28,050 nt of DNA from a virus, in the IMG/VR virus record IMGVR_UViG_3300012210_000017, positions 1-28,050 of that record; one strand, 5' to 3'. Position 1 is the stretch's first letter. Each line of letters begins with the position of its first letter. The translations under genes and the position numbers were made by a program. The notes below the pieces were generated by a model that saw only the letters and a list, made by a program, of their open reading frames with translations, searched no databases and was not told the DNA's origin. Below are positions 1 to 24,295 of the stretch, in pieces.

Positions 1-340
1 CGTCACTGAGGCCGGCACGGAGGCCGGCACTGAGGCCGGCACCGAGGCCGGCACCGAGGCCGGCACCGAGGCCGGCACTGAGGCCGTCACTGAGGCCGGC
101 ACCGAGGCCGGCACTGAGGCCGTCACTGAGGCCGTCACTGAGGCCGTCATTGAGGCCGTCATTGAGGCCGTCACTGAGGCCGTCACTGAGGCCGTCACTG
201 AGGCCGGCACGGAGGCCGGCACCGAGGCCGTCACTGAGGCCGGCACGGAGGCCGGCACTGAGGCCGGCACCGAGGCCGTCACTGAGGCCGTCATTGAGGC
301 CGGCACTGAGACCGGCACCGAGGCCGTCACTGAGGCCGGC
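1..340. repeat. 12-bp tandem repeat array, 28 units, continuing past the left edge
   Basis: Twenty-eight exact 12-bp units occupy 1-336 with no length change, followed by a partial unit to 340. The unit is CG[G/T]CA[C/T][C/T/G]GAGGC, with one GAGAC variant near 307-312. Only positions 3, 6 and 7 normally vary. Thirteen units have T at position 3 and fifteen have G. Because the unit is a multiple of three, several frames stay open through the array. The minus-strand frame G-L-x-[A/D] joins an ordinary protein sequence with a start codon at 574, so the array is read as coding repeat rather than intergenic satellite. The array touches base 1, so its full length is unknown. Confidence 0.97.
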
Positions 341-574
341 AAATTTAGAAATCTTTGTCAGGACATGCAGAGCTATCGCCGCCGTCATCGGCGACGGCAT
401 CCAAAAAAACAGCGGCGCAGGCAGGTTGACAACTGCATATGCGTCAGTGATAGCCCGCTCAGCTGCCGCGTGATCAGCCGGCATGCAAGACGTTCCCTGT
501 GCCCACATCTCGGCGCGAAACTTTATCAGCAGTTCTGCCTGTACTGGCGTTAGACGTTCAATTTTCTTCATCAT
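1..574 (-). CDS. DUF6745-like protein with tetrapeptide repeats, partial (C-terminus outside window)
   Basis: The reading frame starts at the ATG at 574 (a second ATG is at 571, and an in-frame ATG at 640 without a ribosome site) and is open to base 1, giving at least 191 residues. Residues 1-79 are ordinary globular sequence: MKKIERLTPVQAELL near the start, then a PADHAAAERAI-type stretch, an AYAVVNLPAP stretch and FFWMPSPMTAAIA. This matches my memory of DUF6745 N-termini (LTPEQ, PADR-AEAA, a WxxSP motif). From residue 80 it becomes pure G-L-x-[A/D] tetrapeptides: GLSD/GLND (13) and GLSA/GLGA/GLRA (15). DUF6745 proteins of actinobacteria carry a similar period-four low-complexity stretch at this place. 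Function is unknown. It is the last visible gene of the minus-strand operon, and its neighbour at 701-1198 supports the family call. The start site has only a weak AGG upstream. Confidence 0.72.
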   Translation of the reverse strand, partial: MMKKIERLTPVQAELLIKFRAEMWAQGTSCMPADHAAAERAITDAYAVVNLPAPLFFWMPSPMTAAIALHVLTKISKFAGLSDGLGAGLSAGLNDGLSDGLGAGLSAGLRAGLSDGLGAGLRAGLSDGLSDGLSDGLNDGLNDGLSDGLSDGLSAGLGAGLSDGLSAGLGAGLGAGLGAGLSAGLRAGLSD

Positions 575-700: not shown

Positions 701-1198
701 TCAATCTGCAACGATACGTGTTTCGGCACCCGCGCTCTCGATCTGGCGCCCGATCAAATAGCGGCCATGCTGAAGACGTATCCCGGTGTGCTCTTCGTGA
801 TTAATGACGACAGGTGCCTCCACCACGAGACAGCCGATGGCGAGATCCGTGCGGGTCATGATCCCGGCCGATACCATCGCACGGACCGCAGCCGGGTCAC
901 GGTACATGCGCGCGCTCGCGGTAATCTTCCGCGAAGCACCACCGAGTGCCTTGCGCAGCTTCGGATCGCGGGTGGCCAGCAATGGGTCACCGGTCTCACG
1001 CGGCTGTGCTTGGAAATTTTTCTGGCGCATATCGATCGCGTGGTGATGCCCGCTCACCTCGCCTTCCTGCAGGATCAGGCGTCCGTCGATGGGCTTGATC
1101 TCGTCGACCGTGGAAATCTTGATCTTGTCGGGAATCGGGACAATCGAGACATCGCCCTGAAACGCGCAACCTTTGGTCTTATCGAAATCGTGGATCAT
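701..1198 (-). CDS. small His-motif protein, usual partner of DUF6745 genes
   Basis: 165 residues with a clear AGGAGA site about eight bases before the ATG. Near the N-terminus is a QGDVSIVPIP strand (residues 14-23), then DGRLILQEGEVSGHHHAI (residues 39-54, three adjacent His). The C-terminal half carries APVVINHEEHTGI (residues 128-140) and ends GRYLIGRQIE...RIVAD. From memory, the same order (QGDV, GxxxGHxHAI, HEEH, GxYxVxRQREY) occurs in short hypothetical proteins next to DUF6745 genes. The spaced His motifs suggest a small cupin-like metal-binding barrel, which is inference. About 60 residues (59-121) rich in Arg, Lys and Ala lie between the two His motifs, so this copy may carry an insertion. 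It lies directly upstream of the repeat gene at 574, same strand, with a 126-base gap. Confidence 0.72.
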   Translation of the reverse strand: MIHDFDKTKGCAFQGDVSIVPIPDKIKISTVDEIKPIDGRLILQEGEVSGHHHAIDMRQKNFQAQPRETGDPLLATRDPKLRKALGGASRKITASARMYRDPAAVRAMVSAGIMTRTDLAIGCLVVEAPVVINHEEHTGIRLQHGRYLIGRQIESAGAETRIVAD

Positions 1199-10277: not shown

Positions 10278-10466
10278 ATGATTTTCTTGGAAACGATCGA
10301 GAAACGAATGCCGTGTTCTGAGCCTGAATTGGCGCGATTGAAGCGTGAAGCGGCTGTTCGGCGTTACCGTGATCGGGAGGATTTACGCGGCAAGCTTCTG
10401 GATTTGCTGGGGTTTGTGGCGGGCTGGAGAAAGCGGATGAAGCCTCCGCTGAGGCCGCGAAAATGA
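10278..10466 (+). CDS. small basic protein before the large terminase, possibly small-subunit-like
   Basis: 62 residues from ATG 10278, or 52 from ATG 10308 (MPCSEPELARLKREAAVRRY). Strongly charged and helical (RDREDLRGKLLDLL) with a basic tail. It ends in an ATGA overlap with the terminase start. The position is where a small terminase subunit is expected, but the length is short and no HTH is clear, so this is only a positional suggestion. Confidence 0.6.
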   Translation: MIFLETIEKRMPCSEPELARLKREAAVRRYRDREDLRGKLLDLLGFVAGWRKRMKPPLRPRK

Positions 10467-12310
10467 CCGACATCGAGACCGCGGACGAGGGCGGCGCGTT
10501 CCGGCTGGAGTACCAGGGGGTCGCGCCGTTTCCGACTGAGCGGTTCATGGCGTTTCTGGCCAAGTTGAAGGTCCAGAGCAAGGATTATGGGCTGGTTCCG
10601 TTCCGGCTGCTGGGCTCTCAGCGGTATGTGCTGGACAACATCGTGGACGGGCTGGCGCGGGGGGTGACGACGTTTGTCATCTTGAAGAACCGGCAGGCTG
10701 GGATCTCGACGTTTTTCCTGGCGCTGGACATGTTTTGGGCCTTTGAGCACAAGGGTCTTCTCGGCGTGTTCATGACGCACAAGGAGGATGCTCGGGATGA
10801 TTTTCGGGCGACGGTCGAGGTGTTCTTTGCTGAGACGCCGAAGCAGTTCCGGATCAACTATGTCCGGCACAACCGCAATCTGCTTATCCTCAAGAACGGG
10901 TCTCGCTATCGGTATTTGATTGCGGGGACCTCGGAAACCAAGAAGGGCGGACTGGGGCGCGGCGGCGCGGCGAACTATCTGCATTCGACGGAGACGGCGT
11001 TCTATGGGAATGGCGACGATCTCGGAGAATTTCGCTCGCAGATGAGTTCGCTGTATCCGCACCGGCTGCAGATTTACGAGTCGACGGCGAACTCGCTGAA
11101 TTTTTTTTCCGACATGTGGGACGAGGCGAAGTCGGACCCGACCAAGTGCGCGATTTTCATCGGATGGTGGCGGGATGAGCGGAACCAGTTTCCGGTCAAA
11201 CATCCGTTCTTCGACAACTACATGCCGGAGGGGATCAAGACCTCGTTGACGCCGCTGGAGCGCAAGCGGGTGCGGGAGGTGCGGGAGCAGTACGGGTTTT
11301 CGGTGTCGCTGCAGCAGATCGCGTGGTACCGCTGGCACTTGACGAGTGAGAAGGGCGGCGACCAGTCGCTGATGGACCAGGAGTATCCATGGACCGACGA
11401 CCACGCGTTTCAGGCGACGGGCTCGAAGTTCTTCACGGTGGAGGCGTTGACCGACTGCATGCGGTTTGCGAAGAAGCGGCCGTTCCAGACCTTCCGCTAC
11501 AAATTGGGGATGAAGTTCGATGAAACCGAGGTCCGACAAGTCAAGGACGTGCGCGCCGAGCTGCGGATCTGGGAGCACCCCTCCAAGTTCGGATACTACG
11601 TGCTCGCCTGTGATCCGGCTTACGGATCTAGCGACGATGCGGACCGAACTGCTATCTCGATCTGGCGGTGTTATTCCGACTGCATGGTTCAGGTCGCCGA
11701 ATATTGTTCGACGCAGCCGAGCACATATCAGTGCGCTTGGGTCATGGCCCACCTCTGCGGCTACTACGGGCAAACGTGGTCGATGCCGATCATGGAGATC
11801 AACGGACCGGGCCAAGCCGTCTTCGACGAATTGAACAAGGTGCAGAAGATGGCGTCCGAGATCCGGCCGACCGACGAGAACGCGCACATCCGCAACATCC
11901 TCAAGAACATGCGGCACTATTTCTACCGGCGATTGGACAATCCCGGCGGTGGCGAGATGCTGTACCAGTGGCGGACCACGCACGATCTCAAGACCCGCGC
12001 GATGAATCAGTTCAAGAACGCGATCGAACTGCACCGGATGGTGCCGAAATCGATGCCGCTGCTCGAGGAGATGCAGCGCATCACCAACGAGGGCGGCTCG
12101 ATCGGGGCGGAGGGTCGCGGCAAGGACGATCGCGTGATGGCGGCGGCGCTGGCGTGGCAGGCCTACAACACGTGGGTTCAGCAGAGGGTGAAGAATCTGG
12201 GGCTGACGCTGGCGAAGTCTGTGGAGATCGAGGAGAAGGGTGGCACGCCGCCGACCGAGCGGTTGATTACCGAGTATCTCAAGCGGATGCAGATTTCCGT
12301 TCCGCAATAA
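10463..12310 (+). CDS. terL: phage terminase large subunit
   Basis: 615 residues, normal for the family. The ATPase region shows a Walker-A-type loop KNRQAGIST (75-83) in the context TTFVILKNRQAGISTFF. An acidic strand, AANYLHSTETAFY (169-181), stands at the Walker B place. The RNase-H-like nuclease is marked by YYVLACDPAYGSS (D384), PIMEINGPG (E445) and GRGKDDRVMAAAL (D555/D556). It packages DNA into procapsids by docking on the portal. ATGA coupling to the small upstream gene. The portal gene, normally downstream on the same strand, is on the opposite strand here. A long antisense frame covers this gene but is a shadow. Confidence 0.96.
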   Translation: MTDIETADEGGAFRLEYQGVAPFPTERFMAFLAKLKVQSKDYGLVPFRLLGSQRYVLDNIVDGLARGVTTFVILKNRQAGISTFFLALDMFWAFEHKGLLGVFMTHKEDARDDFRATVEVFFAETPKQFRINYVRHNRNLLILKNGSRYRYLIAGTSETKKGGLGRGGAANYLHSTETAFYGNGDDLGEFRSQMSSLYPHRLQIYESTANSLNFFSDMWDEAKSDPTKCAIFIGWWRDERNQFPVKHPFFDNYMPEGIKTSLTPLERKRVREVREQYGFSVSLQQIAWYRWHLTSEKGGDQSLMDQEYPWTDDHAFQATGSKFFTVEALTDCMRFAKKRPFQTFRYKLGMKFDETEVRQVKDVRAELRIWEHPSKFGYYVLACDPAYGSSDDADRTAISIWRCYSDCMVQVAEYCSTQPSTYQCAWVMAHLCGYYGQTWSMPIMEINGPGQAVFDELNKVQKMASEIRPTDENAHIRNILKNMRHYFYRRLDNPGGGEMLYQWRTTHDLKTRAMNQFKNAIELHRMVPKSMPLLEEMQRITNEGGSIGAEGRGKDDRVMAAALAWQAYNTWVQQRVKNLGLTLAKSVEIEEKGGTPPTERLITEYLKRMQISVPQ

Positions 12311-12558: not shown

Positions 12559-12765
12559 ATGATTGCGCCCGTCGTCAGCTTCCTGATTTACCTCTGCCTT
12601 CTGGCCATCGTGATCTACCTGGTGATCTGGGTTTTGACCGATGTCATCGGGCTGCCGATCCCGCCGAAGGTCATTCAGCTGCTGTGGGTGATTGTCGCCC
12701 TGGTCGCGATCCTGTGGCTAGTCCAGATGGTGCTTCCGAACGTACCGCATCTGCGCCTCGGTTAG
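12559..12765 (+). CDS. two-helix membrane protein, holin-like
   Basis: GGAGG about nine bases before the ATG at 12559. 68 residues: helix one within VVSFLIYLCLLAIVIYLVIW, a short loop with LPIPPKV, helix two within LLWVIVALVAILWLVQMV, then a short tail. Size and two-helix form fit class II holins and also the small Thivi_2564-type membrane proteins I recall, whose role is unknown. No endolysin is visible next to it. Its end overlaps the convergent portal gene by four bases. Confidence 0.72.
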   Translation: MIAPVVSFLIYLCLLAIVIYLVIWVLTDVIGLPIPPKVIQLLWVIVALVAILWLVQMVLPNVPHLRLG

Positions 12766-14522
12766 GCCGGTGCGCCGCGGCCCTTGCCGTTCGGCTTGGC
12801 GCCGGGCTCCGGCATTCCCATCTGCTGGCGCTTCAGCGCGGCTTGCGCGGCGCGCTTCTGCTTGGCGCGCAGACCGTGGATCAGGTTGTCGCGATTCGGC
12901 GGGTTGAGCAGCCGGATCAGGTTTTCCTGGTCGATCGCCTGCGCCTTGAACAAGAGTGCCGCCAGCTCCTTGCTGTCATCGGCGAACAGCGGCGAGTGCG
13001 AGTGACCGGCAACCTTGAGCGAATAGCGGCCATGCATGTTGGCGTAGAAGAAGGGATCGCCCGGCTTGCCGTCTTCCTTCGGGTCCGGCGTGATCGCCTC
13101 GTCGTTGTTGCGCATGTTGAGCTTGAACGCGAGATTGCCGAGGCGGACGAGCGGCGACTCCAGCCGGATGGCGGCCTTCTTGATCCGACCTGATCCGGTG
13201 GTCGCGAGCTGCTTGGCGTGGCCGCGCGAGCGCACGCCGGCCTCGCCCTTGCCCTCGATGGTCTGGGTAAGACCCGAGGCTTCGATGAAGAGATTCCCGA
13301 TCGACATGTAGTCGGCGAAGATGTCGGGCGGCATCTCGGGGTAGAGTTCCTTGATCTGGGCCTGCGGAAGCTGGTCCATGACCCACGTATCCTCGCCGCC
13401 GAACGCCTCCATCTTCTCGTCCGACAGGCCCATGAACCCGCTTCCAACCCGCGGCGGATAGGCCTGGCGGCCGAGGATGTCGTGGATCTGCTCCAGCCGC
13501 TCGTTCGACCAGTTCTGCAAGGGAATTAGCGATTCGATATGGGCCTTTCCCCAGAAATATTCGTACGCGTCGTACGGCCGAACCAGCGTGTAGGGGTGCT
13601 CGCGCGGGAAGAATGGATTGCAGGACGTGTTGTAGAACGGCTCCTGCTGCGCGCGTTGGGCACCGAACTGCTTGGCGTTCTTGAGCGCTGATATGGTGGC
13701 CTTGGAATCCGAGATGATGGTGTCGGGGTCGACGATGAAGAACACCCGGTAGTCGCTTAGCTCGTCATCCCAGATCGTCAGCTCGTGGAAGGGGACAAGC
13801 GGGCGATCGACCTTGGCGTGATACGAGGGCCGCGCGATGTAGGAGGGATTGAGCGAGCCGGTGACATTGCCGGCGAGGTTCTCCCCGCCGGTCGAAGCAA
13901 TGATCATACGGGTGATCATCTCCGGGAACGGTGATTCGAACGGCGTGTTGACGACGTTGAGCTTGTCGATCTTGCCCGAGAGGCCGGCGCGCGCCAGGCG
14001 CTGGCACGCATTGTCATAATCGATGTGATAGGTGTGAACCATGGCCGGCTGGGATTCGAGCTCGGTGATCTCCTCCGAGAACACGCCGAACTGCCACGGC
14101 ATCACGATCTTGCAGGTCGCATCCTCGTTGATGTCGGACCATCCGATTTTCAGGATCATCGAGTCGTAGACGAGGCTTCCGATGATGGCGTCGCCGAAGA
14201 AGTCGAACAGCCCGGCATCGCGGAAATCGTCGTTGAACGAATCCTGCGCGGCCATGTACTGCTTGACCATCTCGTCCGGCGAGTTGAGCGGCGCCGAGAG
14301 CGCGAACTGCGCGTGATCCTGCGAATAGAGGAACGAGGACACAAGATCGAGATGCGACTCGATGCGGTTGTAGAGGATGTCCTGGTCGGACGCGGATCCG
14401 TAGAGCCAGAACTGGCGGCGGCGGTCGTAGAGGTCCTTGCGATCCTTGCGCGACTTCAGGCAGACATCCAAGGTCCAACGGATGAACTCCGGCAGTTTCG
14501 CGGGATCGTCCGGGATAATCAT
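12762..14522 (-). CDS. phage portal protein
   Basis: 586 residues, a normal portal length. Features: an N-terminal RKDLYDRRRQFWLYG clip-type region, SHLDLVSSFLYSQ, central GLFDFFGDAIIGSLVYDS, HPYTLVRPYDAYEYFWGKAH, then ESLIPLQNWSNERLEQIHD, which resembles the long stem helix of portals, and a disordered Pro/Gly/Lys tail. It forms the twelve-subunit ring through which DNA enters. It lies between terminase and capsid as expected but on the minus strand, coupled by ATGA to the zinc-ribbon gene at 15004. This inversion is unusual. Confidence 0.88.
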   Translation of the reverse strand: MIIPDDPAKLPEFIRWTLDVCLKSRKDRKDLYDRRRQFWLYGSASDQDILYNRIESHLDLVSSFLYSQDHAQFALSAPLNSPDEMVKQYMAAQDSFNDDFRDAGLFDFFGDAIIGSLVYDSMILKIGWSDINEDATCKIVMPWQFGVFSEEITELESQPAMVHTYHIDYDNACQRLARAGLSGKIDKLNVVNTPFESPFPEMITRMIIASTGGENLAGNVTGSLNPSYIARPSYHAKVDRPLVPFHELTIWDDELSDYRVFFIVDPDTIISDSKATISALKNAKQFGAQRAQQEPFYNTSCNPFFPREHPYTLVRPYDAYEYFWGKAHIESLIPLQNWSNERLEQIHDILGRQAYPPRVGSGFMGLSDEKMEAFGGEDTWVMDQLPQAQIKELYPEMPPDIFADYMSIGNLFIEASGLTQTIEGKGEAGVRSRGHAKQLATTGSGRIKKAAIRLESPLVRLGNLAFKLNMRNNDEAITPDPKEDGKPGDPFFYANMHGRYSLKVAGHSHSPLFADDSKELAALLFKAQAIDQENLIRLLNPPNRDNLIHGLRAKQKRAAQAALKRQQMGMPEPGAKPNGKGRGAPA

Positions 14523-15004
14523 GCCTTGTGAGACCCCTCAAACGCGGTGTTGCTGCGCATGTTTGGGAGGCCCTTTAATGCACCGGGTCCGAGAGCTTGC
14601 CCGATTCCGGCGCTGGCCTTGACGTTGAAATGATTCGTGGTCGGGACGCACTGCGCGCCCGAGGGGTTCTCGTTCGTCATGGATGAGCGTGGGTCGACCT
14701 GCGCCGCGAAGCCGCCGAAATTGATGGGTTGGCTCGCTCCAGGGGCGGCTTGCGGCAGACGCACCTTCTTGGCCGCACGCCCCTCCTCACCGGAGTTCAT
14801 GTCGCCCATCCGGAAGATGTCGGCGAGCGCGCGCAGCTCAGTGTCTGCCGATTTGGCCGCGCCGCCGATATGGCCGCCGTTTGGTCTCCAGGAAACCCTC
14901 ACGCACTTGCATTTCGGGCATTCCGGGTTTGGTTCGTATGAATCAAACCACGCCGCGCAGGCGCGATTTTCGCAAATCCATGAGCGTTGGATGCCAATCG
15001 ACAT
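14519..15004 (-). CDS. zinc-ribbon protein preceding the portal
   Basis: 161 residues. The N-terminus has C11-x4-C16 and C29-x2-C32-x-C34 (WICENRACAAWF, PECPKCKC), a rubredoxin-like ribbon. The remaining 120 residues are low-complexity and likely disordered. ATGA-coupled to the portal, so it may be a portal-associated or assembly factor (inference from position). The ATG lacks a ribosome site and lies six bases after a -10 candidate. Confidence 0.72.
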   Translation of the reverse strand: MSIGIQRSWICENRACAAWFDSYEPNPECPKCKCVRVSWRPNGGHIGGAAKSADTELRALADIFRMGDMNSGEEGRAAKKVRLPQAAPGASQPINFGGFAAQVDPRSSMTNENPSGAQCVPTTNHFNVKASAGIGQALGPGALKGLPNMRSNTAFEGSHKA

Positions 15005-16353: not shown

Positions 16354-17364
16354 ATGCCGCAACTTGGCTCAGGCATTATCCCGGCTTCGGGCGCAATCGC
16401 GGCAGAACTATCCTCGGTGGTTCGCCGGGCCTACATGCCGCGCGTTTACGTGCAGCTCTGGAAATCCGCGCCGCTGATCGCGGCTCTCCTCGCCTCGGCG
16501 CAGGTCGCCTCCGGTGGCCTCTCCCCGATCACGGCGCCGCTGCAGGGCGCGCCGATGGTGTCGGGACAGTGGGTCGACTATTCCGGCTCGTTCCAGCAGC
16601 CCGGCGTGCAGCCCGGTATTCAGAACGCCGAATTCAACCTCAAGGCCTTCGTCTCGACGATCCCCTTCCTCGGCATGGAAGGCCTGGTCCAGCTCGATTA
16701 CTCGGTGGTGCCGCTGATCGAAGCGCGCATGAACGATTCCACCAACGTCACGATCGACACCTTTGCGACCTCCTTGTTCAACAACGTGGCCAATCAGCAG
16801 CAGCTGATCGGACTTCCGGCCGCGATCGACGACGGCAGCTTCGCGGTGAGCTACGGCGGGGTGTCGCGCACCGCCAACCCGTTCTGGAAATCGACCTATG
16901 TGCACGGCGCCGGCAACGTCACGCCGACGCGAAACCTGATGCTGCAGTACATCTCGCAGGTCTCCAAGACCACGGGCGAGATGCCGACCATCGGCATCAT
17001 GGGCTTCGGAACGTGGACACTGCTGGCGCAGGATTTCACTTCACAGGAGCGCTACAACATCACGCCCGGCAACGCGTTCGGCGCCGACAAGAAGGCGGAA
17101 GCGCTGTTCCGCGCGCTCGATGTCGCCGGCGTGCCGTTCTATGCCGATCCGTACTGCCCCGAGGGCGTGCTGTATCTGATCAACACCAACTATCTCTCGC
17201 TCTTCCTGCATGAGCGGGCCGCGTTTTCGTTCACCGGGTTCGAATCCACGTTGCCGAACAACCAGCTAGGCTACATTGGGGCGATCCTGAGCCTTTTGGA
17301 GCTGGTTGACGTGAAATGCAAGGCCCACGGCAAGTTCGATGGGCTCGCGTTCCTGAACATCTGA
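16354..17364 (+). CDS. phage major capsid protein
   Basis: 336 residues, within the range of HK97-fold capsid proteins. Recognisable parts: an N-terminal AELSSVVRRAYMPRVYVQLW region, MVSGQWVDYSGSFQQPG, and the central LIGLPAAIDDGSFAVSYGGV followed by SRTANPFWKS (about residues 151-180), a pattern shared by many phage capsid proteins. The C-terminus (ALDVAGVPFYADPYCPEGVL, YLINTNYLSLFLH) fits the fold. AAGAGG seven bases before the ATG. It follows the scaffold candidate and precedes the decoration-type genes. Confidence 0.9.
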   Translation: MPQLGSGIIPASGAIAAELSSVVRRAYMPRVYVQLWKSAPLIAALLASAQVASGGLSPITAPLQGAPMVSGQWVDYSGSFQQPGVQPGIQNAEFNLKAFVSTIPFLGMEGLVQLDYSVVPLIEARMNDSTNVTIDTFATSLFNNVANQQQLIGLPAAIDDGSFAVSYGGVSRTANPFWKSTYVHGAGNVTPTRNLMLQYISQVSKTTGEMPTIGIMGFGTWTLLAQDFTSQERYNITPGNAFGADKKAEALFRALDVAGVPFYADPYCPEGVLYLINTNYLSLFLHERAAFSFTGFESTLPNNQLGYIGAILSLLELVDVKCKAHGKFDGLAFLNI

Positions 17365-22093: not shown

Positions 22094-24295
22094 ATGCCGC
22101 CACCCGGATCAGCCCAGCGAGCAGCCTCCAAGTTCATCGTCTTCGAGCAATTCGAGAAGATGAACACGGCGAGCGTGCGCCAGGCGCTCAATGAGAAAGA
22201 ACTGTCGTGGCTGGAGAATCTGCAGCCGATCGCGCCGAACAACCTGACGACGGTACCGGGTCCGCTCGGCGCGATCACCACAATTTCCGAGACCATCACC
22301 TCTCAGTTTTACGCCAACGTCAGTGGGCTGGACTGGATCGTGTCATTTTCCTCGGTCGGAAGCGGGTGGGTCACGCACATCGGGGACAGTCGATCGACGC
22401 GATTTGCGCCGCCCGGGACCTTTACGAGTCCGGACGCAACCGTGTGGCAGGGCCAGCAGCTTCTGATCAACGATCCGACTGCGGGCTATTGCCTCTGGAA
22501 CAATCTGGGCAACATTCAGATTTTCGTCCGTCAGGGCGGCGTCTCTCCGGTCATCACGCTGACCAACGGCGGCTCTGGTTACACCTCCGTGCCTGCGGTC
22601 GCGATCAACGGCGGTTCCGGCATGGGCGCCACCGCCGTTGCCACCATCGGCACACCGCAGGTCACCGCGGTGAACGTCATCACCGGCGGCACGCAATACG
22701 GCCCCGCCCCGGGCGTGGTGTTCAGTGGTGGTGGTGGCTCCGGTGCAGCGGCGACAGCCAATATCGACCCGCGCAGTATTCAGTCGGTGACCGTCGTCAG
22801 CCCCGGTCAATACTTCGCCGGAACACCGTCTCCAACCGTGACTGTCACAGGCGGCGGCGGCTCAGGTGCCTCTCTTGTATGCGGCGGTCTATTGTTCAAC
22901 GGTGCAATATTCTATGTCAGCATCATCGGCATCAACAATCCTGGCTCCGGTTATACGTCCGCGCCGACGGTTACTATTTCCGGAGGCTCTGTTTTCCCAG
23001 GCCATGATGCTACCGCGATTTGTACCGTCGGAGACGGCCGCGTGTTATCAGTCACGGTGACCAATGGCGGCGGTGGCTATACCTCAGCACCGGCGGTCTC
23101 GTTCACGGGCGGCGGCTCAGGATCAGGCGCCACGGCCGCCTCAACCGTCGGCGGCACGAGCGTCACGTCGATAGCCCTGACCAATCCGGGCGCCGGATAT
23201 CTCGCGAGCGATACTCTGACGGTGGCTTTCTCAGGTGGTGGTGGCTCCGGCGCGGCAGCAACCGCGCATGTCTGGCCATTCGTCACCGGCGGCCCGACAC
23301 TCGCCGTGTTCGACGGACGAGTATGGCTCGGACATGGCCATATCGTGCAATACACCGGCACCGGAGGGTTCGACGATTTTTCCGCGGCCGGGGCCTCGGC
23401 GTTTTTCTCGATCAACGACAATGATCTCGTGCATGCCGTGACCGCTCTGCGCAATTTCAACAACTACCTGTTCATCATGGGCGACCAGTCGGTCAAGCAG
23501 ATCGGCAACATCTCGCTCAACAATGCCGGAAACGTCACGCTGTTCACTGTTCTGACCTTGTCGTCCGATCAGGGCACGATCTATCCGCTATCGTGCGGCT
23601 CGTTCAACCGCATTTTCATGTTCGCAAACTCGAACGGAATCTATGCGGTGCTTGGCGCCAGCGTGCAGAAGATCAGCGACGACCTCGACGGCATCTTCCG
23701 GATCAATCCGACGACGGGCCAGTCTCTGATCGATTTCAGCCAGCCGATCCAGGCGGCGATCGCCGACATCAACGGCATTCATCACATCGCGTTTCTGGTC
23801 CGCTACAAGGACCCGCTGGCGTCAACGCGATCGATCCTGCTCGTCTTCAACGGCAAGCGGTGGTTCGTGGTGTCGCAGGGCAATGCGCTGGTCACGGTTG
23901 TCACCGCGTCAGATCTGACCAGCGGCAAGACCGTGACATATGCCAGCTCAGGATCTGATATCACGGTCATTCTGGGGGAGCCGAGGAATCCCGTCACGTT
24001 CAAGGCGCAGACGGCGCTGACCCATCACGGCAACGCGGTGCAGCGGAAACAGATGCTGGCCGCCGGAACGGCGCTGACGACCACCGGGAGCGGAAGCGTG
24101 ACCGTGAACTTCGACACCGAGAATGGCACTGTGGCCAAGGCCTACACTCTGGCGACGGGATTCCAATTGCCGAGCGGGCATTCCGGTGTCGGCGGCTCCG
24201 GTCGCTATCTGGGCATGACCATCACCGGAACGCTGGCAGGCTTCACGTTGAACAACGCTGAATTGGAATACATTGAGACGGCGCTATGGAGCTAG
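22094..24295 (+). CDS. large neck/hub (tail stabilisation) protein with beta-repeat insert
   Basis: 733 residues. Residues 20-60 (NTASVRQALNEKELSWLENL, QPIAPNNLTTVPGPLGA) resemble the start of P22 gp10-like hub proteins found in many podoviruses. Residues about 151-393 are five to six repeats of roughly 40 residues with the pattern GGSGYTSxPxVxI followed by GGGGSGAxATA. Residues 394-733 return to a propeller-like domain (LAVFDGRVWLGHGHIVQYTG, FMFANSNGIYAVLGASVQKI). Probable role: plugging the neck and carrying surface-exposed repeats. The next gene starts two bases after its stop. Confidence 0.78.
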   Translation: MPPPGSAQRAASKFIVFEQFEKMNTASVRQALNEKELSWLENLQPIAPNNLTTVPGPLGAITTISETITSQFYANVSGLDWIVSFSSVGSGWVTHIGDSRSTRFAPPGTFTSPDATVWQGQQLLINDPTAGYCLWNNLGNIQIFVRQGGVSPVITLTNGGSGYTSVPAVAINGGSGMGATAVATIGTPQVTAVNVITGGTQYGPAPGVVFSGGGGSGAAATANIDPRSIQSVTVVSPGQYFAGTPSPTVTVTGGGGSGASLVCGGLLFNGAIFYVSIIGINNPGSGYTSAPTVTISGGSVFPGHDATAICTVGDGRVLSVTVTNGGGGYTSAPAVSFTGGGSGSGATAASTVGGTSVTSIALTNPGAGYLASDTLTVAFSGGGGSGAAATAHVWPFVTGGPTLAVFDGRVWLGHGHIVQYTGTGGFDDFSAAGASAFFSINDNDLVHAVTALRNFNNYLFIMGDQSVKQIGNISLNNAGNVTLFTVLTLSSDQGTIYPLSCGSFNRIFMFANSNGIYAVLGASVQKISDDLDGIFRINPTTGQSLIDFSQPIQAAIADINGIHHIAFLVRYKDPLASTRSILLVFNGKRWFVVSQGNALVTVVTASDLTSGKTVTYASSGSDITVILGEPRNPVTFKAQTALTHHGNAVQRKQMLAAGTALTTTGSGSVTVNFDTENGTVAKAYTLATGFQLPSGHSGVGGSGRYLGMTITGTLAGFTLNNAELEYIETALWS

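Follow-up and report, generated by a model that had tools for sequence, protein, structure and literature searches.

The window, by which the whole of the analysed stretch is meant, comprises the full 28,050 bases of a virus fragment, the left end of which is occupied by a 12-bp tandem repeat, and the question raised by this locus is whether the repeat, which could pass for a noncoding satellite, is translated and, if so, into what kind of protein. The array extends over positions 4..341 with 28.2 copies, 90% matches and no indels (TRF). On the minus strand it belongs to a frame of 190 codons (2..571), which starts from an ATG at 571 preceded by 'cacagga' (an alternative ATG lies at 574), runs through 78 residues (338..571) and then through 28 uninterrupted G-L-x1-x2 units (2..337) up to the edge of the record. 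The original prediction of at least 28 perfect units following an ordinary N-terminus is thereby borne out, with 79 residues before the units if the ATG at 574 is used. According to the translation and codon counts, the framework codons GGC CTC are constant except for one GGT, the single synonymous framework change, while x1 is encoded by AGT, GGT, CGT, or AAT (Ser, Gly, Arg, Asn) and x2 by GAC or GCC (Asp, Ala); the 28 units comprise 10 SD, 3 ND, 7 GA, 3 RA, and 5 SA, and Trp is missing from this alphabet. Other frames are also open across the array, e.g., 2..553 on the plus strand, so openness by itself is no proof of coding, and the frame was assigned because its N-terminus has homologues. 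There is no sequence to the left of base 1, and the C-terminus of the gene lies off the record.

The 78 N-terminal residues form a conserved domain defined by alignment and homology, with the pattern LTxxQ...ADRxxAExAIxxxYxxxGxxxPxFxWxxSP. They are 60% identical to those of the closest relative, L001, which likewise has a GLxx array, 45% identical (E 4e-9) to a complete protein of a Caudoviricetes genome, and 36% identical (E 2e-4) to a complete prophage protein of Mycobacterium abscessus. Both complete database proteins are built in the same order, i.e., the N-domain, a tetrapeptide array, and a PF20530 (DUF6745) domain, PF20530 being thus the C-terminal domain of relatives that share the N-terminus and the array of the window gene. 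Another candidate relative, L002, was dropped as a chance antisense match. The L001 contig (G001) ends inside its GLxx array, and its opposite end opens with further GLxx units that lead into PF20530 (E 3.8e-30); a broad GLxx DNA pattern matched only these two ends among the viral contigs, and the window's units, sought there as an exact DNA pattern, had no match. This contig is probably a circular genome cut within the array, and it offers the best available evidence, by sequence comparison, for a DUF6745 end of the window gene, whose own C-terminus remains unseen. Every one of the 32 complete members in the alignment matched PF20530, both the 26 that have arrays and the six array-less chromosomal ones.

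The interpretation of the satellite as the repeat region within a DUF6745-like coding sequence is thus supported by the homology of its N-terminus to array-bearing PF20530 proteins, and we regard it as virtually certain, as far as homology can tell, that the window gene encodes a DUF6745-type phage protein. The profile search with PF20530 gave no match in the window protein or anywhere in the 28,050-base record. An HMM comparison of residues 1-79 with PF20530 had been proposed as a check, the lack of a match counting as refutation; no match is obtained, because the Pfam model covers the C-terminal domain only and leaves out the N-terminal one. Such a test would have misled, though the idea behind it was right. 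Apart from the missing N-terminal domain, the Pfam entry describes neither a tetrapeptide array nor a partner gene.

In phages and other mobile elements, the DUF6745 gene is the larger of two genes that make up an accessory module. In the window, the second gene (701..1198, minus strand, 165 aa) is located directly upstream of the DUF6745-type gene on the same strand and is matched by phrog_27831 (PHROGs E 3.3e-10), as are partners at other loci; its motifs are QGDV...GEVSGHHHAI...HEEHxxIRL..GRYLIGRQ...RIVAD. A partner gene was found before or after DUF6745 at about 45 loci by neighbour clustering and at 140 loci by HMM. The HMM, derived from viral partners, identified a gene adjoining DUF6745 at 76 of the 80 bacterial loci and also placed the pair in Microcystis phages, Deinococcus, and Mycolicibacterium and Nocardia plasmids. 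Among 296 evenly sampled Actinomycetota genomes, nine contain DUF6745 and nine the partner, eight of them shared (p = 6e-14), and in these eight the two genes lie within about 1 kb of each other. No convincing Pfam match was obtained for the partner, nor does it have a relative of solved structure, and profile searches against PDB sequences with the partner and the C-domain gave best E values of 0.64-0.73. No description of the association of phrog_27831 with DUF6745 was found. The two genes form a close pair, of unknown function, that occurs in phages, plasmids, and bacterial chromosomes. It is worth adding that chromosomal pairs and Deinococcus plasmid pairs (L062, L108, L109, L111) are located beside an STM4011-STM4015 radical-SAM/hydrolase cluster, a location seen in one actinobacterial group and in Deinococcus. 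Moreover, in the two Deinococcus proteins leucine-rich repeats are fused to a portion of the C-terminal DUF6745 region, and the genome of one Candidatus Obscuribacterales member (G005) shows an unusual expansion, with 11 PF20530 matches over many contigs.

A scan of viral contigs with the commonest unit DNA (CAGCTC NGG GRC) revealed 76 stretches, most of which are DUF6745 genes whose end domains have diverged; other members have alternative frameworks, SL, DSL/ASL, GL, and QV. Since the QL arrays were mostly collected by DNA pattern, the predominance of CAG-CTC is partly due to ascertainment and the framework frequencies are biased. Unlike the array-bearing members, those of actinobacterial chromosomes have a non-repetitive middle between the end domains, as do those of Microcystis phages and Nostocales plasmids; the Microcystis phages, considered as a natural copy-number series, were rejected for lack of an array. 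In the tree of the end domains, the array-less state requires three changes, each forced by well-supported branches, and the frameworks are interleaved, indicating that the array was repeatedly lost or gained and the framework repeatedly changed. All three array-less lineages retain the N- and C-domains, and the actinobacterial and Microcystis phage ones the partner as well, which implies that the array is dispensable for some versions of the function.

Because 12 is a multiple of three, copy number was expected to be free to change without a frameshift, and this holds among relatives with identical or nearly identical flanks. Genes of an M. abscessus prophage comprise 46, 19, and 62 units (L004, L014, and L015, respectively). 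Four records of this one gene, the fourth truncated at 20 units, show 0, 0, or 10 differences across 851 bp 3' of the array, and the three that include upstream sequence do not differ in the 600 bp before it. In five further pairs (L131/L186, L168/L179, L167/L169, L151/L176, and L130/L145) the arrays diverge internally while the flanks are 99.4-100% identical over hundreds of bases. Units are therefore gained, lost, and reshuffled in frame far faster than the flanks mutate.

Such differences could have been created by short-read assembly of a repeat. Many contigs do terminate within the array, and at least six have it at both ends (e.g., IMGVR_UViG_3300046813_000129 and 3300044703_000050), and in a long-read assembly of Nocardia farcinica with two copies, set aside here, one copy is frameshifted. 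Nevertheless, the first difference falls at unit 2 (24 bp) between L015 and L004, at unit 9 in L131/L186, and at the fourth unit from the end between L004 and L014, i.e., in several cases no more than about 110 bp from the unique flank, a distance that short reads span, which makes misassembly unlikely. In addition, none of the 28 units of the window array breaks the reading frame, and isolates, plasmids, and numerous metagenomes all show the pattern, so that an assembly artefact is hardly credible. The contigs with the array at both ends are likely to represent circular genomes that were split within it. The array explains why many viral contigs, probably including the window, stop inside such genes, and completeness estimates may be too low for phages broken in this way.

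What is preserved during this turnover can be read from the codons, counted in 87 arrays with a total of 1,563 units (a few contigs were counted twice; duplicates were removed for the statistics on alleles, order, composition, and synonymous expectation). At the L, x1, x2, and s positions of the unit there are 16, 9, 9, and 7 synonymous deviants, respectively, against 10, 831, 556, and 17 non-synonymous ones, the L and s codons being nearly invariant and x1 and x2 varying almost solely by amino acid. When distinct alleles are counted once per array, six are synonymous and 197 non-synonymous; the expectation from single-base changes is 24.4% synonymous, which for 6/203 gives p = 2e-17. This value assumes independent alleles and is weakened by shared ancestry, although its direction is not in doubt. 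The common alphabet is Trp, Arg, or Gly at x1 combined with Asp and either Gly or Ala at x2, its codons (NGG and G[A/C/G]C) being linked by single-base steps. Trp, Arg, and Gly are all found in 60 of the 66 arrays with at least 10 units. Arg is encoded only by AGG in 45 arrays, only by CGG in 33, and by both in 2, indicating that within an array one Arg allele has been copied rather than mutated afresh.

These counts bear on the simplest reading of the locus, a near-neutral coding minisatellite in which slippage acts on a permissive linker and the variation merely reflects the mutational accessibility of the NGG and GRC codons. The single-base steps joining the common codons, the rapid change in array length, and the chromosomal forms that manage without an array all suit it. 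It fails to account for the scarcity of synonymous alleles, for the rarity of Ala, Val, and Glu at x1 of the QL arrays in spite of their mutational accessibility, and for the re-creation of the same alphabet by different framework codons in different phages. Slippage would also leave identical neighbouring units, and these show no excess (239 vs. 254.5 expected; lags 2 and 3 deviate weakly). This reading, which we hold to be improbable, fits the codon data worst among those that accept the array as real. Selection on the peptide is strong, and fast in-frame turnover accompanied by selection at the peptide level can be considered highly probable. The window array obeys the same logic as the other arrays, with a different alphabet.

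The peptide selection limits the residues allowed at two positions and not their pairing. The counts on which a coupling between these positions had been proposed are exact, Asp occurring with Ser or Asn in 13 of 13 units and Ala being the sole companion of Gly and Arg (10 of 10), and the coupling in the window array is significant (p = 0.004, shuffle test on interior units). Of the two explanations offered, amplification of founder units is favoured over selection on the pairing, since other arrays have no coupling or a different one: the closest relative contains R-D, G-D, and W-D units besides G-A and W-A, and in the pooled arrays x1 and x2 are independent (e.g., 166 W,D units observed vs. 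162 expected). The coupling is thereby ruled out as a structural rule and is most simply taken as a local feature left behind by a small number of founder units.

Unit order looks near random and composition nearly uniform. Repeated words of units are longer than in shuffled arrays in only 9 of 52 cases, which for most arrays rules out that they were generated mainly by tandem duplication of a higher order. The composition of x1 (W 28%, R 30%, and G 41%) is similar across unrelated phages, with a dispersion of 1.4-2.0 times the binomial value; the fraction of Asp is more scattered (dispersion 3.2), which counts against a tightly held composition.

The order and composition data weigh on the possibility that the array is a recognition arm engaged in an arms race, its units forming, like those of TALE or LRR arrays, a surface that specifically binds a factor of the host or of a rival phage, with reshuffling changing or hiding the target in counter-defence or superinfection exclusion. 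Consistent with this, the arrays differ among phages with identical flanks, non-synonymous diversity is kept at two positions only, and in annotated phages the DUF6745 gene sits among early or accessory genes, with ERF, RepA-like, and integrase neighbours. A recognition code would, however, favour particular orders and a lineage-specific composition, while the order looks random and the composition is near constant across unrelated phages. Moreover, neither the end domains nor the partner have a match to any defence-system model in PADLOC, and the sole match of the window protein is to Specificity_I (HsdS), driven by the array and confined to residues 69-138 (E 3.2e-14). We therefore regard recognition as an unlikely, though not negligible, function.

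The match to HsdS points to a different precedent. The TAEL repeats of the type I HsdS subunits of EcoR124I/II have a 12-bp unit encoding four residues, just over one helical turn, and change their copy number in frame (PMC3874165). The arrays of the window family are alike in having 12-bp four-residue units and in-frame copy change, and differ in their extent, since HsdS combines two or three identical units with target-recognition domains, while the DUF6745 arrays run from about 10 to >60 units, each with two variable residues, and recognition domains are absent. The window gene was rejected as an HsdS gene, the profile match being limited to the array region and the complete relatives matching PF20530. 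The array could still be a ruler, only the length of a helix between the end domains being of importance; the HsdS precedent (PMC3874165), the 12-bp unit whose length changes remain in frame, and the predicted helix all speak for it. A pure spacer, however, would not hold Trp, Arg, and Gly together in 60 of 66 arrays, nor is it reconciled with the rejection of synonymous variants and the acceptance of only certain non-synonymous ones, and a range of about 14 to >60 units is too broad for it. A ruler is accordingly quite unlikely, more so than a recognition arm.

The helix itself is uncertain because the confidence of the AlphaFold2 models is low. In the window protein, the N-domain was predicted with pLDDT >90 over most of its length and the array as one 105-residue helix at 55-75; in L005, both end domains reached >90, while the array was weakly helical at <50. 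The fold search gave no PDB match at E <= 0.001; the best VIA-align result, Z 3.3 over 58 residues, is meaningless, and the viral fold library gave back DUF6745 itself. The deca-GX3 helices of Yae1/Lto1 (PF09811) resemble the window array in having a small residue at each fourth position. The array was not accepted as PF09811, since it scored 25.5 bits, below the cut-off of 27.5, and PF09811 is not a variable array and its end domains are unrelated.

The explanation that we put forward is a variable multivalent arm within the two-gene module. A globular N-domain and a globular DUF6745 C-domain are linked by the array of L-x1-x2-s units, which is inferred to form a long, mainly helical arm acting through many weak contacts of Trp, Arg, and Asp side chains, either in self-assembly or in multivalent binding of a partner. 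Multivalency is inferred because the order of units is free while the residue types and their rough proportions are maintained; composition and length of the arm would accordingly outweigh unit order. New arms may arise when 12-bp units recombine homologously or slip against one another, selection would discard those of wrong composition, and the turnover would keep the framework codons uniform. The lineages that do without an array and the lack of Trp in the window's own alphabet speak against this explanation. In the absence of functional evidence, we consider this explanation as a whole to be evenly balanced between right and wrong; the multivalent function assigned to the arm, judged separately, is tentative and leans somewhat towards doubt.

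Diversity-generating retroelements likewise cause local non-synonymous diversification of a phage gene amid conserved surroundings; the DUF6745 arrays differ from their targets in that the variation lies in repeated units, uses fixed alphabets, and is not adenine-directed. The arrays were rejected as targets of such an element, since the first base of x1 takes three bases per array and AGG and CGG occur together in 2 of 80 arrays. A bolder reading, possible and slightly more doubtful than the multivalent function alone, is that of a portable module generating diversity without a reverse transcriptase, in which a 12-bp alphabet of about six units with a set composition would be reshuffled in populations, placed in unrelated proteins, and used for multivalency through the two-gene system. 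One case suggests that the array could be transferable from gene to gene: L124 (8983-10011) and L160 (1-212), from IMGVR_UViG_3300050014_000410, have QL[W/R][D/G] array DNA in a protein without a DUF6745 N- or C-domain, with only Trp and Arg at x1.

Coding minisatellites are known; no description was found of a phage protein family with arms composed as near-random words in a three-by-two amino-acid alphabet that differ among phages whose DNA is otherwise identical, and a search of the open-licence literature on DUF6745, phage tetrapeptide or hypervariable repeats, the unit peptides, and the STM4011-4015 cluster revealed nothing relevant. The family is a natural library of order-shuffled, composition-matched repeat proteins, in which the effects of composition, length, and order can be separated.

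Two further features of the window lie outside the module. A portal-like gene (12762..14522) and its neighbour (14519..15004) are encoded on the minus strand, between the plus-strand genes for terminase (10463..12310) and the major head protein (16354..17364). The region 22094..24295 codes for a 733-aa protein with Gly-rich repeats of the SGYTSAPTVTISGG type, which matches several families of phage structural proteins.
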